Positions 3,803-11,598 of a stretch of 25,830 bases of DNA are shown here, piece after piece. The translations under genes and the position numbers were made by a program. The stretch is from the IMG/VR virus record IMGVR_UViG_3300008116_001072, positions 1 through 25,830 of that record; one strand, given 5' to 3'. The notes below the pieces were generated by a model. The model did no database searches, was not told the origin of the DNA, and was given only the letters and a program-made list of their open reading frames with translations. Source of the stretch: a virus. Each line of letters begins with the position of its first letter. Position 1 is the first letter of the stretch.

Positions 3803-4485
3803 GCAGCGATAAAAGAATAAGCGAATTAACATTAGTTGCAGCCAATGCAAGCGGAGATATGTTTCCGATGGTGCAAGGCTCGACAACATTCAAGACAACA
3901 CTTGCCAAGATTTCAACTTTTTTGCAGGGTTATTTGACGGCATCCACAAGTGCAAAAGGAGTTGTTGAATTAGCAACTAATGCAGAAACACAAGCAGGAA
4001 GCGATACAACAAGAGCAGTAACACCTGCTGGACTTGCTTCAGTTGTTGCGAGTGAATCATTGGCAGGACTTGCAGAGATAGCAACACAAGGTGAAGTGGA
4101 TGCAGGCACAGATGACACAAAGATAATCACTCCATTGAAGTTAGAGAACTTTGATAAGTGGGCAACAAAAGAACCTGTTTTAAATACTGCAAATACTGCT
4201 AGTGGCAATAGCACAGTAACATTAAACGCAATGAGTGGTGTTTGTACGTTTACACAGCATATTGTAAAGAATAGCCTTGCTACTTTTACGCTTAACAATA
4301 ATAACATAACCAATAATTCTGTGCTTGATTTTGAGATTAAATATTCAGGTGCAGGCGCACCAGTTATAATGCACTATTCAACAACTCCAAATCAGGCTAC
4401 ATTTCACATTGCAAATCTTCAACTTACTGGACACAATGCAGACACAGATGCTAACATTGTGATTTGGTTTAAAATAGTAGGCTAA
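3799..4485 (+). CDS. Tail-fibre-like protein with phage fibre repeats
   Basis: 228 aa. Two copies of the phage tail-fibre repeat are visible: KGVVELATNAETQAGSD leading to TRAVTPAGLAS (about residues 53-82), and LAGLAEIATQGEVDAGTDD leading to IITPLKLEN. In this family the repeat forms the shaft of receptor-binding fibres. The N-terminus (MSSDKRISELTLVAANASGDMFPMVQGS) resembles the adaptor segment seen in Bacteroidota phage fibres. The C-terminal half is beta-rich and probably forms the head of the fibre. The gene is unusual in lying between the tail-tube-like gene and the portal gene. The stop overlaps the portal start by 1 nt. Confidence 0.7.
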   Translation: MSSDKRISELTLVAANASGDMFPMVQGSTTFKTTLAKISTFLQGYLTASTSAKGVVELATNAETQAGSDTTRAVTPAGLASVVASESLAGLAEIATQGEVDAGTDDTKIITPLKLENFDKWATKEPVLNTANTASGNSTVTLNAMSGVCTFTQHIVKNSLATFTLNNNNITNNSVLDFEIKYSGAGAPVIMHYSTTPNQATFHIANLQLTGHNADTDANIVIWFKIVG

Positions 4486-6329
4486 TGCACCTTATAAAAA
4501 TAGACTTCGAAAACAACAAAGTACCTGCATTTGTAGAGCCACGCAAAGGCTCACAACAAAAGTGGGTTTTTTATGGAGAGAACAATGATTATCCGCAATT
4601 CCTAACAACCTTGTTTAATAGGTCGGCAAAGCACAATGCTATTTGCACCGATAAACAATTATACATAACGGGGCAGGGATGGACATTTGATGCCACAGGG
4701 TTAGAAGGCGAAGCGGAAGCACAATTAAGAGCATTTATTGACAATCCTAATCCATACGAAACTCTGCAAGATTTGCTTTCTAAAACCGCACTTGATGAGT
4801 TATTGTATGGTGGATTTTATCTTAAAGGTGTATGCGATAAAACAGGGCAGTTAGCTGAACTATATCATGTGGATTATAGCAGGGTGCGAAGCAATGAACA
4901 CAATAGCGAGTTTTATATAAGCGATTGTTGGGTAAATACAGACGGCACATACAAGGCCAACCTGAAACCAGATGAATATGAAACATTGCCTTGTTATGAC
5001 CCGAACAAAAAGCAGAAAGTTTTTATATTTTATTACAAATCATACAGACCAGGATTAAAGACTTATACTTTGCCTGAGTATATTGGTGCAGTTCCTGCTA
5101 TCATAACAGATGCGGAGATTGCTAACTTCCATAGGGCCGAGATTCAGAACGGATTCAAAGGCTCTAAGATGATTGTGTTCAAGAACGGAGTGCCTTCATC
5201 AGATGAGATGAAGAAAACCGAAAGACAATTAAAAGCAAAGTTTACCAATACAGATTCAGCAGGAAGTATGGTTGTTGACTTTGTTGATGACCCTAACCGA
5301 GTGCCAGATGTAATCACATTAAATGGCGATGACTTTGACAAGCGATATGAGGCATTAAACAAAACAATACAAGAGGAAATATTTGTAGGTCATAAGGTGG
5401 TATCACCTATGCTTTTTGGTGTAAGAGTTGAAGGCCAGTTGGGTGGTAGGAATGAAATGATTGATGCTTTTCATTTATTTCAAAACAAATATATTTCGCC
5501 AAAACAGGAAATACAGGAAAAGATTTATAACATTTTTGCACCTGTTAAAGGCAAGTTACAGATTAAGAAAGTTGAGCCAGTAATGGCTTCAGTTGGTGAA
5601 ACTATCTTACTTGACTTATTAACTCAAGATGAGATGCGTGAGATTATCGGGCGCAAACCACTTGAGCAAGGTCAGTTGACAGTTAACCAATCTAAAACTG
5701 CACAACCTACACAGACATTTGCAGAACCAAAGAAGCAAAATGATGAGTTGGACTATTCTGTATTCTCCAAATATGGTGAGCCGATTGAAAACTTTGTATC
5801 AGTAAAGACAAAAAAGTTTATTGCATCAAGGCAAGAATTTTTATCTAAGTTGGAAGAAGGTGTTTTGGATATTATCAAAAAGACTCCAGATGTAACGGCA
5901 GAAGATTTGGTTAAGATATTTGACACGGATAAAACAAAGATTGATGATGCACTTGAAACCCTGACTGCTGAAGGTTTAATAAAGCTATCAGACAAGGGCA
6001 TAAGCCTGACCAACAAAGGCGATAAAAAAAAAGTTCCTGACTTTGAGCAGTTGTTTATTAGATACAGATATGAATTAAGACCAGATGCACCTGCATTGAA
6101 ACCAGGTGGAAAGTCAAGGGATTTTTGCAGAGCAATGATAAGCAACCCACGTTATTTTAGCAGGGAGGACATTGATAATATTAGCAGGGATTTGGGGCAG
6201 TTATACGATATACCAAATTATGATGCGTTTAAAATGAGGGGCGGTTGGTATCATGACCCGAATATGGATGTAAATGTGCCTTATTGCAGGCATATCTGGA
6301 AACAAGAATTAGTTAAAAGAGCAAGATAA
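4485..6329 (+). CDS. Portal protein with C-terminal winged-helix and head-protein-like extension
   Basis: 614 aa. Residues 1 to about 390 match the portal pattern: an N-terminal WVFYGENNDYPQFL segment, LDELLYGGFYLKGV, the stem/crown region with NGFKGSKMIVFKNG, and VEGQLGGRNEMIDAFHLFQNKYI. The portal forms the dodecameric ring at the head vertex through which DNA passes. After a Gln/Pro-rich linker (about 400-415) come a winged-helix-like block (about 460-510: TPDVTAEDLVKIFDTDKTKI, ALETLTAEGLIKL) and a terminal domain with GGKSRDFCRAMISNPRYFS and PYCRHIWKQEL. That ending resembles the C-terminus found on phage minor head (Mu F / SPP1 gp7-like) proteins. The fusion may replace a separate minor head protein. 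The portal lies far from the terminase genes (22.1-23.7 kb). Confidence 0.8.
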   Translation: MHLIKIDFENNKVPAFVEPRKGSQQKWVFYGENNDYPQFLTTLFNRSAKHNAICTDKQLYITGQGWTFDATGLEGEAEAQLRAFIDNPNPYETLQDLLSKTALDELLYGGFYLKGVCDKTGQLAELYHVDYSRVRSNEHNSEFYISDCWVNTDGTYKANLKPDEYETLPCYDPNKKQKVFIFYYKSYRPGLKTYTLPEYIGAVPAIITDAEIANFHRAEIQNGFKGSKMIVFKNGVPSSDEMKKTERQLKAKFTNTDSAGSMVVDFVDDPNRVPDVITLNGDDFDKRYEALNKTIQEEIFVGHKVVSPMLFGVRVEGQLGGRNEMIDAFHLFQNKYISPKQEIQEKIYNIFAPVKGKLQIKKVEPVMASVGETILLDLLTQDEMREIIGRKPLEQGQLTVNQSKTAQPTQTFAEPKKQNDELDYSVFSKYGEPIENFVSVKTKKFIASRQEFLSKLEEGVLDIIKKTPDVTAEDLVKIFDTDKTKIDDALETLTAEGLIKLSDKGISLTNKGDKKKVPDFEQLFIRYRYELRPDAPALKPGGKSRDFCRAMISNPRYFSREDIDNISRDLGQLYDIPNYDAFKMRGGWYHDPNMDVNVPYCRHIWKQELVKRAR

Positions 6330-9868: not shown

Positions 9869-10856
9869 AAAGCCTCACCTAATTGCACTCAAGGAAATGG
9901 TGCTAAAATTCCCAAACACTCCGCATTTAACCCTTGCCAAAGCATTTGTTAAAAAGTACCCAAAGTTTTATTTATCAGTCGAGCAGGCAAGAACTCAAAT
10001 CAGAGTTTTAAAAGGCTCACTTGGTGATAGAAGCAGAGAGGTATTGCACAAAGACTTCCGGGCAGAACTTGACAAGTTAAAAAAAGACTTGCCAAAAGGC
10101 GAAACGGAAAAGAAAGAGCCATATCATTTGCCAACTGCAAGTAAAAACATTCTCATCATTGGAGATATTCATATCCCATACCACGATGACACCGCATTAT
10201 TTGCTGCATTGGAATATGGATTGGAACAGGATGTGGACACAATCATAATCAATGGCGATTTAATTGATTTTTCTTTGATTAGCCGACACGAAAAAGACTT
10301 AAGGAAGCGAAGTGTCAGTTATGAATTAGATACTGCCAGAACATTTTTAAAAGGGCTGAGGGCAATGTTCCCAAATAAACACATAGTTTACAAACTTGGA
10401 AACCATGACATCCGATATGAAAAGTGGATTATGCAGAAAGCACCAGAGTTAATGGATATTGAAGGCACTAAGTTAGAAGATTTATTGCAGTTGGTTAGCT
10501 TAAATATACATTTGGTTTACGATAAACAGGTTATTTATGCAGGCAAGCACATGGCTATATTTCACGGACACGAAATCGGCCTTACCTCTGGAGGGGTAAA
10601 CCCAGCAAGGTCAGCAAGGTTAAAGCTAAATAAGTCTGCAATCATTAACCACTTCCATCGGGAAACCAAAGATATGGGTAAGAACTTTGGAGAGCAACCA
10701 TATTCATGTTATTCGAGTGGATGCCTCTGTGACCTGTTTCCTGCATATATGGGCGCACATAATAACTGGTCGCATGGTTTTATCCATCTGCAAATAGATA
10801 AGCAGGGAGATTATAAGGTAATGCAGAAAACAATTATTGAAGGCAAAATATATTGA
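9840..10856 (+). CDS. Calcineurin-like metallophosphoesterase
   Basis: 338 aa. All core metal-binding motifs of the calcineurin-like phosphoesterases are present: GDIH (108-111), NGDLID (138-143), GNHD (187-190), FHGHE (241-245) and HFHR (271-274). About 100 residues of basic, helical N-terminus (HTH-like segment LTLAKAFVKKYP and VEQARTQIRVL) precede the enzyme and may bind DNA. The family hydrolyses phosphodiesters or phosphomonoesters. In phages such enzymes are often next to replication or packaging genes; the substrate is unknown. It is the last gene before a strong terminator. Confidence 0.85.
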   Translation: MTQTKKRKNEKPHLIALKEMVLKFPNTPHLTLAKAFVKKYPKFYLSVEQARTQIRVLKGSLGDRSREVLHKDFRAELDKLKKDLPKGETEKKEPYHLPTASKNILIIGDIHIPYHDDTALFAALEYGLEQDVDTIIINGDLIDFSLISRHEKDLRKRSVSYELDTARTFLKGLRAMFPNKHIVYKLGNHDIRYEKWIMQKAPELMDIEGTKLEDLLQLVSLNIHLVYDKQVIYAGKHMAIFHGHEIGLTSGGVNPARSARLKLNKSAIINHFHRETKDMGKNFGEQPYSCYSSGCLCDLFPAYMGAHNNWSHGFIHLQIDKQGDYKVMQKTIIEGKIY

Positions 10857-10875
10857 TATTGTTAATAAGTTTTGT

Positions 10876-10906
10876 GGGGTCGGCAGCAATGTCGGCCTCT
10901 TTTTTG
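10876..10906 (+). terminator. Rho-independent terminator ending the late unit
   Basis: GGGGTCGGC (10876-10884), loop AGCAAT and GTCGGCCTC (10891-10899) pair over 9 bp (two G-U pairs), followed by TTTTTTG. It begins 19 nt after the phosphoesterase stop and is followed closely by a new promoter. Confidence 0.85.
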
Positions 10907-10919
10907 TTTATAACTTTTA

Positions 10920-10950
10920 TTTGTTTATTCAGAAAATATATATATCTTTG
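10920..10950 (+). promoter_or_regulatory. Strong Bacteroidota-type promoter
   Basis: TTTG at 10920-10923, a 19-nt spacer and TATCTTTG at 10943-10950 match both halves of the Bacteroidota primary-sigma consensus exactly. Transcription should begin near 10957. It lies between a terminator and the 400-nt region without long ORFs, so it drives the candidate RNA and possibly the early genes. Confidence 0.8.
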
Positions 10951-10956
10951 CTTTGT

Positions 10957-11047
10957 TGTTTAGAGAGAGACAACTGATTGCTTTGAACTTTTCTTTTGAT
11001 TAGAAATATAAAAGGCTTGCAGACTCTCTCCTGCGGCCTTTTTCCTT
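10957..11047 (+). ncRNA. Candidate ~90-nt terminated RNA / attenuated leader
   Basis: From the predicted start of the 10920 promoter the transcript meets a terminator-like hairpin: AAAAGGC (11010-11016), GCAG (11019-11022), loop ACTCTCTC (11023-11030), CTGC (11031-11034), GCC (11036-11038), then TTTTTCCTTTTT. The loop sequence CTCTCTC (11024-11030) is perfectly complementary to GAGAGAG (10963-10969) near the 5' end. A 7-bp pseudoknot or competing helix is therefore possible. This could be a small RNA or an attenuator for the genes beyond. No known RNA family is recognised. Confidence 0.45.
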
Positions 11048-11057
11048 TTTATAGCTG

Positions 11058-11372
11058 CATAACAACAAGACATACATGGGGGAGTTGTATGAATTGTACT
11101 TCCTGTCAGGGTAAGAAAACACAACCTGCAAACAAAAACAACGGAAAAGAATAAACTGTGTTTGTAAAAGTAAAACCACGCTCTGATTAATCCTATCAAC
11201 GTGGGCAGGAAGGGAGTTGATTAACAAACATAAAGTTCGCTGCATAACGACCATTTAACAACGTGGTAGTGTTTATTCTTTTTGTATAGATTTATGACCT
11301 GTTTTCTTTAAAAGGTTATATTTCAAATGTAGTAAGGCTAACCTCCCCTTCCTGCATAAAGGAGTTGTTATG
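11058..11372 (+). other. Structured region without long ORFs
   Basis: Apart from a 21-codon ORF this stretch has no convincing gene but many complementary segments. CATAACAAC (11058-11066) can pair with GTTGTTATG (11364-11372) or, locally with one bulge, with GTTGTATG (11084-11091). GCAGGAAGGGAG (11205-11216) pairs with CTCCCCTTCCTGC (11343-11355). CCACG (11176-11180) pairs with CGTGG (11200-11204). CTCCCC (11343-11348) could also pair with GGGGAG (11079-11084). GCTGCATAAC occurs twice (11054 and 11239). It may be a long regulatory leader for the gene at 11389, or a replication or regulatory site. A and T tracts separate the elements. I see no tRNA, CRISPR or known riboswitch. Confidence 0.4.
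11089..11154 (+). CDS. Candidate 21-aa CxxC microprotein or leader peptide
   Basis: ATG at 11089 is preceded by GGGGGAG (11078-11084), one of the few Shine-Dalgarno-like sites in the window. It encodes MNCTSCQGKKTQPANKNNGK plus a final Glu. The CTSC motif near the N-terminus could bind metal or a thiol partner; the rest is polar and basic. The start codon is partly within a local hairpin (11058-11091). It might be a leader peptide that controls the structured region rather than a functional protein. Too short for firm evidence. Confidence 0.3.
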   Translation: MNCTSCQGKKTQPANKNNGKE

Positions 11373-11388
11373 ATAAATAAATAAGAAT

Positions 11389-11598
11389 ATGATAGAAATA
11401 AAAGAAACACCAGTCAAGATATATGACATTGAAAAAAAAGAACTCATTGCAACCTATCCGAGCCAAAAGAGAGCAGCAGTAGAATTATTTGCAGGCACAA
11501 AGGCAGGTTTGTGCAAGATTAGAGATTTAGTTTCTGGCAGGATAAGAAAATCTTATTGTCCAAAACTTGATATATATATTACGGCAAGATATGCTTAA
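11389..11598 (+). CDS. Small DNA-binding-like protein (NUMOD-like)
   Basis: 69 aa: KETPVKIYDIEKKELIATYP, then SQKRAAVELFAGTKAGLCKI, then RKSYCPKLDIYITARYA. A short beta segment, a helix-turn-helix-like stretch (SQKRAAVELFAGTKAGLCKIRDLV) and a final strand resemble the modular DNA-binding units attached to homing nucleases and present alone in many Bacteroidota phages. It is the first substantial gene after the 10920 promoter region, so an early regulatory role is plausible. The family assignment is tentative. Confidence 0.55.
   Translation: MIEIKETPVKIYDIEKKELIATYPSQKRAAVELFAGTKAGLCKIRDLVSGRIRKSYCPKLDIYITARYA

Follow-up and report, generated by a model that had tools for sequence, protein, structure and literature searches.

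Two loops of pRNA vary between phages and stay complementary, FinP has a two-hairpin plan with allele-specific loops, and ColE1 RNA I is a stem-loop RNA that acts by loop-loop kissing. The pRNA of phi29-like phages is described as a short phage RNA whose self-assembly is driven by loop-loop interactions (PMC5340915), and FinP as a short stem-loop RNA acting via loop-loop kissing (PMC9977716). In phage P4, the small CI RNA controls termination and base-pairs with sites in its own transcript that are complementary to it; it arises by processing of a longer transcript and has an antisense action on seqA and seqC, which lie upstream and downstream of it (PMC4825925). ROOL and GOLLD are phage-linked RNAs that form cages and have kissing loops backed by covariation, and contacts first seen by covariation proved to lie between chains (PMC12286853).

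The locus considered here lies in a window of 25,830 nucleotides, the whole stretch of DNA that was analyzed (positions 1 to 25,830 of IMG/VR virus record IMGVR_UViG_3300008116_001072). It holds a putative small-RNA unit in which the loop of a 5' hairpin is complementary to the loop of an intrinsic terminator (Table 1). A search of open-licence papers found no description of a kiss between a 5' hairpin and a terminator loop in a phage small RNA, and small RNAs of the Bacteroidota are, to our knowledge, little studied.

A promoter-terminator unit between late and early genes

The window belongs to a phage with a promoter of the Bacteroidota type, and its large terminase is closest to those of Flavobacterium psychrophilum phages (55%). 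The unit sits where the preliminary description had placed it, at the boundary of late and early genes: portal, endolysin, and metallophosphoesterase genes make up the upstream run on one side, and small genes, then an exonuclease-like gene, and then the large terminase lie on the other. The upstream operon ends in an intrinsic terminator, listed by the pattern scan at 10876-10899, that is nearly identical in all nine related records (columns 10 to 35 of alignment A1 are invariant), with a T run that is one T shorter in the window and L001. A sigma-70 promoter was rejected for this site, as the sigma-70 scan did not return 10920-10950 and the Bacteroidota consensus fits. The promoter had been called perfect, a word that applies to the window and L001 alone, as the -7 box is the off-consensus GATATTTG in 7 of the 9 related records. 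Transcription would start near 10955-10957, and no second promoter of the Bacteroidota kind was seen in the window before the next gene.

The terminator had been put about 90 nt past the promoter; the unit measures 88 to 91 nt in all eight complete records. The heptamer reported early in the transcript and its complement in the terminator loop were both located, in the loops of hairpins P1 and P3, respectively. The pattern scan lists a terminator-like hairpin at 11017-11036, and the full stem extends beyond it on both sides. The plan of P3, with 8 bp, a single bulged T on the 5' side, and 4 bp, is common to the window, L001, L002, L010, L005, and L009; its loop has 7 nt in L010, L005, and L009 and 8 nt in the GAGAGAG allele, and in L008 and L013 there is one mismatch in the lower stem. 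The weak middle hairpin, P2, has a counterpart in the other alleles (CCTT/AAGG) at a like place. The unit has the makeup of an intrinsically terminated small-RNA gene, namely, a promoter, a hairpin with a T-rich tail, and no open reading frame on the + strand, where none of at least 60 aa was found from 10856 to 11389. On the - strand, two open reading frames overlap the region; in L010 the longest open runs on that strand are not the same.

Table 1. Features of the locus, in window coordinates, and the loop pairs found in the related records
Feature	Position	Strand	Basis	Records
Intrinsic terminator, end of upstream (late) operon	10876-10906	+	Pattern scan and alignment	
Promoter, Bacteroidota-type: TTTG (10920-10923), 19 nt, TATCTTTG (10943-10950)	10920-10950	+	Consensus match	
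Putative small-RNA unit with its own promoter and intrinsic terminator	10955-11050	+	Sequence comparison	
P1, 5' hairpin: stem GTTGT/ACAAC, loop TTAGAGAGAG	10955-10974	+	Folding; register and length kept in relatives	
Putative kissing 7-mer GAGAGAG, P1 loop	10963-10969	+	Loop comparison, pattern scan	
P2, weak middle hairpin TTTCT/AGAAA	10990-11006	+	Folds	
P3, terminator hairpin: 8 bp, bulged T11018, 4 bp, 8-nt loop	11010-11042	+	Alignment	
Putative kissing 7-mer CTCTCTC, terminator loop	11024-11030	+	Loop comparison, pattern scan	
T-rich terminator tail	11039-11052	+	Sequence, pattern scan	
Non-coding cassette type A	11051-11372	+	Comparison and folding	Window, L001, L002, L010
69-aa gene, weak NUMOD1 similarity	11389-11598	+	19.8 bits, cutoff 22.8	
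Loop pair GAGAGAG/CTCTCTC				Window, L001, L002
Loop pair ATAGCGG/CCGCTAT				L010, L005
Loop pair ATAGGAC/GTCCTAT				L008, L013
Loop pair GTAACGG/CCGTTAC				L009

Covariation of the two loops

Relatives were sought by means of a neighboring protein (12 loci) and by a scan for the upstream terminator sequence (8 records). The terminator and promoter region is common to nine IMG/VR records, the window included, and the unit is complete in eight of them (the window, L001, L002, L010, L005, L009, L008, and L013), with L001 repeating the unit of the window and L013 that of L008. The record of L006 is cut inside the unit and was omitted from all loop counts. Scans with two downstream genes and an alignment of the upstream protein gave no new alleles. 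Four alleles, all from one phage group, make up the evidence base.

The preliminary description had staked its proposal on the complementarity being conserved in relatives, and it is conserved, through compensatory changes: the eight complete units carry four distinct loop pairs, each unit has 7 of 7 Watson-Crick matches, and all seven positions of the pairing have a two-sided change somewhere in the four-allele set. When a 5' loop is set against the terminator loop of another allele, only 1 to 5 of the 7 pairs are Watson-Crick, and the true pairing is the best of the 24 possible assignments of four loops to four loops (28 versus 24 for the next). Since both loops have changed and yet remain complementary in the relatives, the pairing between them has very probably been selected. 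The two hairpin loops display covarying complementarity, one of the features of a kissing-loop RNA.

Covariation was measured on alignment A6, which consists of L010, L005, L009, and L008; the window and L002 were excluded, as MAFFT shifts their terminator by one column. On A6 the loop-loop helix has double changes at 5 of 7 pairs with 100% of the cells paired, and sliding the partners by 1 to 3 columns lowers the paired cells from 99% to 36 to 47%. The covariation score of the whole structure was reached by none of 500 shuffles, a control that ignores relatedness. The four rows represent only three distinct alleles, which keeps the covariation count small; the strength of the case, as the alignments present it, lies in the total change of loop sequence with complementarity kept in full. 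P1 has a compensatory pair of its own on A6 (C-G to A-U), and from the window to L010 both partners have changed in 9 of the 12 pairs of the P3 stem, with the plan kept. P1 of L009 contains wobble (T-G) pairs, as does P3 in both L008 and the window, a placement that suits a + strand RNA.

When the letters of the first 20 nt were shuffled 20,000 times, a 7-nt complement to the loop of the terminator turned up 117 times for the window allele and 29, 34, and 29 times for the other three. In a scan of the window for a promoter, a 5' hairpin, and a terminator hairpin, the two loops being complementary over 7 nt, the unit itself was the single place on the + strand, and the - strand had none; among 200 dinucleotide-shuffled versions of the window, 2 contained such a place (+ strand only). 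In its first form the scanner limited wobble pairs and so failed to detect the window, L001, L002, and L009; it was then loosened, with the -7 box widened to GAnnTTTG, while the known cases were in view, so that its matches on those cases are not independent evidence. What decides the matter is the match of 7 of 7 in all eight complete units. A covariance model trained on the other four rows, with neither the window nor the loop-loop pairs included, recovered the window unit at full length with an E-value of 0.0018, the E-values of this four-row model being rough.

Modular exchange of the unit and the cassettes beyond it

The 86 nt upstream of the unit are 91 to 100% identical among six sequences. 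The unit itself is 92% identical between the window and L002, 45 to 51% between the window allele and the other three alleles, and 58 to 86% among those three. In the sequences compared, the unit is a hypervariable allelic module whose flanks can be 91 to 98% identical. Immediately past the terminator, three types of cassette of about 320 to 350 nt each share one slot: the place of type A is taken by an unrelated type B in L005 and L009 (L005 5286-5640) and by type C in L008 and L013 (L008 4581-4935). Cassette identity is 97 to 98% within type A, 94% within type B, and 26 to 36% between types. The units of L010 and L005 are 99% identical and their cassettes unrelated (32%), whereas L010 and L002 have 98% identity in the cassette and 46% in the unit. 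L010 combines the unit of L005 with the cassette of L002, which indicates that the two parts are exchanged independently of each other and that the terminator marks the boundary between them. The contigs of L006, L007, L011, L012, L015, and L035 end within or near the region, as is expected where assemblies break at a locus with many alleles.

Cassette type A is probably a structured RNA, as judged from folding models: three of its members fold better than shuffled sequences, with z-scores of -2.5 to -2.9. The corresponding values are -2.4 (L009) and -0.65 (L005) for type B and -0.45 for type C. A short open reading frame in type A stops earlier in L010, on reading of the sequence. The type B cassettes of L005 and L009 (5321-5409 in each) match the Betaproteobacteria-1 RNA (RF02932) over its full length below the gathering score, with 35.3 and 32.7 of 49.4 bits (E-values of 3.5e-05 and 1.3e-04, respectively). 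It is possible that type B is a relative of this RNA in a Bacteroidota-type phage; a search of open-licence papers on the Betaproteobacteria-1 motif found nothing. The first gene of at least 60 aa past the unit in the window encodes the 69-aa protein with weak similarity to NUMOD1, a domain known from homing endonucleases. In L002 a phosphoadenosine phosphosulfate reductase-like gene (988-1779; phrog_424, E-value of 7.8e-24) lies between the cassette and the 69-aa gene, and L010 has an open reading frame that, by reading, resembles it.

Searches were extended beyond this phage group. Rfam 15 gave no match at the gathering score in the window, L005, L008, L009, L010, or L002, and the low-scoring matches over the unit look like chance (the best is ncr1015, with 28 of 60 bits and an E-value of 0.068). 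The DNA of the region had no match among phage or plasmid records, nor did that of cassettes B and C among phage records. The six whole reference phages (L038 and L059 to L063) held no convincing second case; promoter-filtered matches in FpV9 and BV283P2 were rejected, as they lie inside annotated genes. In L014, a more distant relative (metallophosphoesterase, 73%), the loop-match scan found no such unit. The corresponding stretch of L014, at about 4390-4790, seems to hold three other promoter-hairpin-terminator units, without a loop match. The terminator pattern matched six stretches in genome_contigs, among them L025, from a Bacteroidia metagenome-assembled genome; L025 has a model E-value of 8e-05, but 6 of its 12 P1 positions are marked unpaired, and it looks like a plain terminator. 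L022, in viral_contigs, is an unrelated G+C-rich sequence and was taken as a chance match. Among 395 genomes around that of L025, the covariance model gave two weak matches, neither with 7-nt complementary loops, and a search without a positive control found the neighboring metallophosphoesterase at an E-value of 1e-50 or better in none of them. No covarying second target site for the loops was found in the sequences compared; extra 7- or 8-mer copies in L021, L019/L018, L020, and the window lie in unrelated places and were judged to be chance.

Readings of the loop pairing and known systems

The hairpins, the loop complementarity, its compensatory upkeep, and the modular exchange of the unit are evident in the aligned sequences. 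We consider it moderately likely that they reflect a terminated phage small RNA closed by a kissing contact between P1 and the terminator. An RNA of about 88 to 91 nt would be transcribed from its own promoter and ended at the intrinsic terminator, and it would fold into three hairpins: one at the 5' end, a weak one in the middle, and the bulged terminator hairpin. The 7-nt loops of the first and last hairpins would then pair, presumably within one molecule, and join the 5' and 3' ends of the RNA; the covariation would be explained equally well by pairing between two copies. The closed fold may stabilize the RNA or shape a surface that faces a protein, and the loop sequence could vary freely since complementarity alone would matter.

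It is possible, though unlikely, that the same seven pairs instead belong to a long-range antiterminator helix and that the locus is an attenuator. The terminator would be opened by pairing of the 5' end (TTGTT plus the 7-mer) with the loop and a part of the 3' arm of its hairpin, and, under a signal that shifts the balance, the polymerase would continue into the cassette and the 69-aa and 141-aa genes. All six sequences allow a nested fold with this helix, and in five it is the lower of the two nested states, with energies, the kissing contact not being counted, of -23.9 versus -18.6 kcal/mol for the free-loop hairpins in the window; the exception is L009 (-21.7 versus -23.4 kcal/mol). The folding program does not score a kissing contact, and the isolated 7-bp loop duplexes have energies of -7.8 to -9.4 kcal/mol, which would bring the two states close. 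The complementarity reaches 9 bp in L010, L005, and L008, and no TAnnTTTG box occurs on the + strand from the unit to the next gene, as the attenuator would have it. However, by reading of the alignment, the complementarity stops exactly at the edges of the 7-mers in the window and L009, and P1, which dissolves in the antiterminated state, is itself kept by a compensatory change; it is for these two reasons that we favor the kissing fold. In addition, the outer pairs of the long helix (TTGTT with AGCAG, or GTTGT with GCGGC) depend on G-U and, by reading, show no covariation among L010, L005, and L009, and the sequence that readthrough would reach differs from record to record: the cassettes are unrelated, and L002 and L010 carry one more gene.

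The kissing-closed small RNA could also be given a role, and we put this forward as a doubtful extension: it may represent a new class of phage RNA with a private, hypervariable 7-letter lock and key that serves self/non-self recognition between coinfecting phages. The alleles appear near-orthogonal, with 1 to 5 of 7 cross pairs, and seem to be swapped as modules between similar phages, which may be likened to the loop changes that set plasmid incompatibility.

Rather improbable is pairing between molecules, in which the 5' loop would kiss the terminator loop of another copy and give dimers or rings, as in phi29 pRNA, ROOL, and GOLLD. Covariation is blind to whether pairing is within or between molecules, as the ROOL and GOLLD contacts that proved to join chains illustrate (PMC12286853), and the 7-mers fill 7-nt loops in three of the four alleles, a geometry that would suit kissing. 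Nothing favors this arrangement over pairing within a molecule, however, and the 35-nt linker between P1 and P3 should make the latter easy. An element acting as DNA, such as a recombination or protein-binding site with paired hairpins, would suit a recombination boundary at which unit and cassette are exchanged separately and near which the contigs of several relatives end, but it is hardly credible given the promoter upstream, the T-rich terminator downstream, and the strand-specific wobble pairs.

A small RNA closed by its own loops can be set beside the described systems one by one. Like phi29 pRNA, the unit would be a short phage RNA with loop-loop complementarity; unlike pRNA, it has no three-way junction in the folds, and its loops belong to a 5' hairpin and an intrinsic terminator. 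The phage terminase is of the ordinary type and matches ordinary large-terminase families, so that a pRNA motor is not expected. Loops that kiss in a short stem-loop RNA would be shared with FinP and ColE1 RNA I, but those RNAs pair with a target from the opposite strand, whereas here two loops of one RNA would pair; on the - strand a -7 box was seen at 11232, inside cassette type A, a cassette that is absent from other alleles. Like P4 CI, the unit would be a small phage RNA that pairs within its own transcript, although here both partners lie within one terminated unit. Covariation-backed kissing loops in a phage RNA would be common to the unit and to ROOL and GOLLD, which differ in forming cages and in being far longer (GOLLD often more than 800 nt), and the unit has no Rfam match at the gathering score. 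The unit resembles each known system in single respects and is best described as a putative small RNA whose two loops are complementary to each other and differ between alleles. Should the RNA be made, it would offer a compact natural case of a 5' end fastened to a terminator hairpin through a loop contact whose sequence may change freely while it matches itself. The four alleles form a natural series of compensatory mutants for tests of stability, termination, and assembly, and they hint at a specificity code in Bacteroidota phages.
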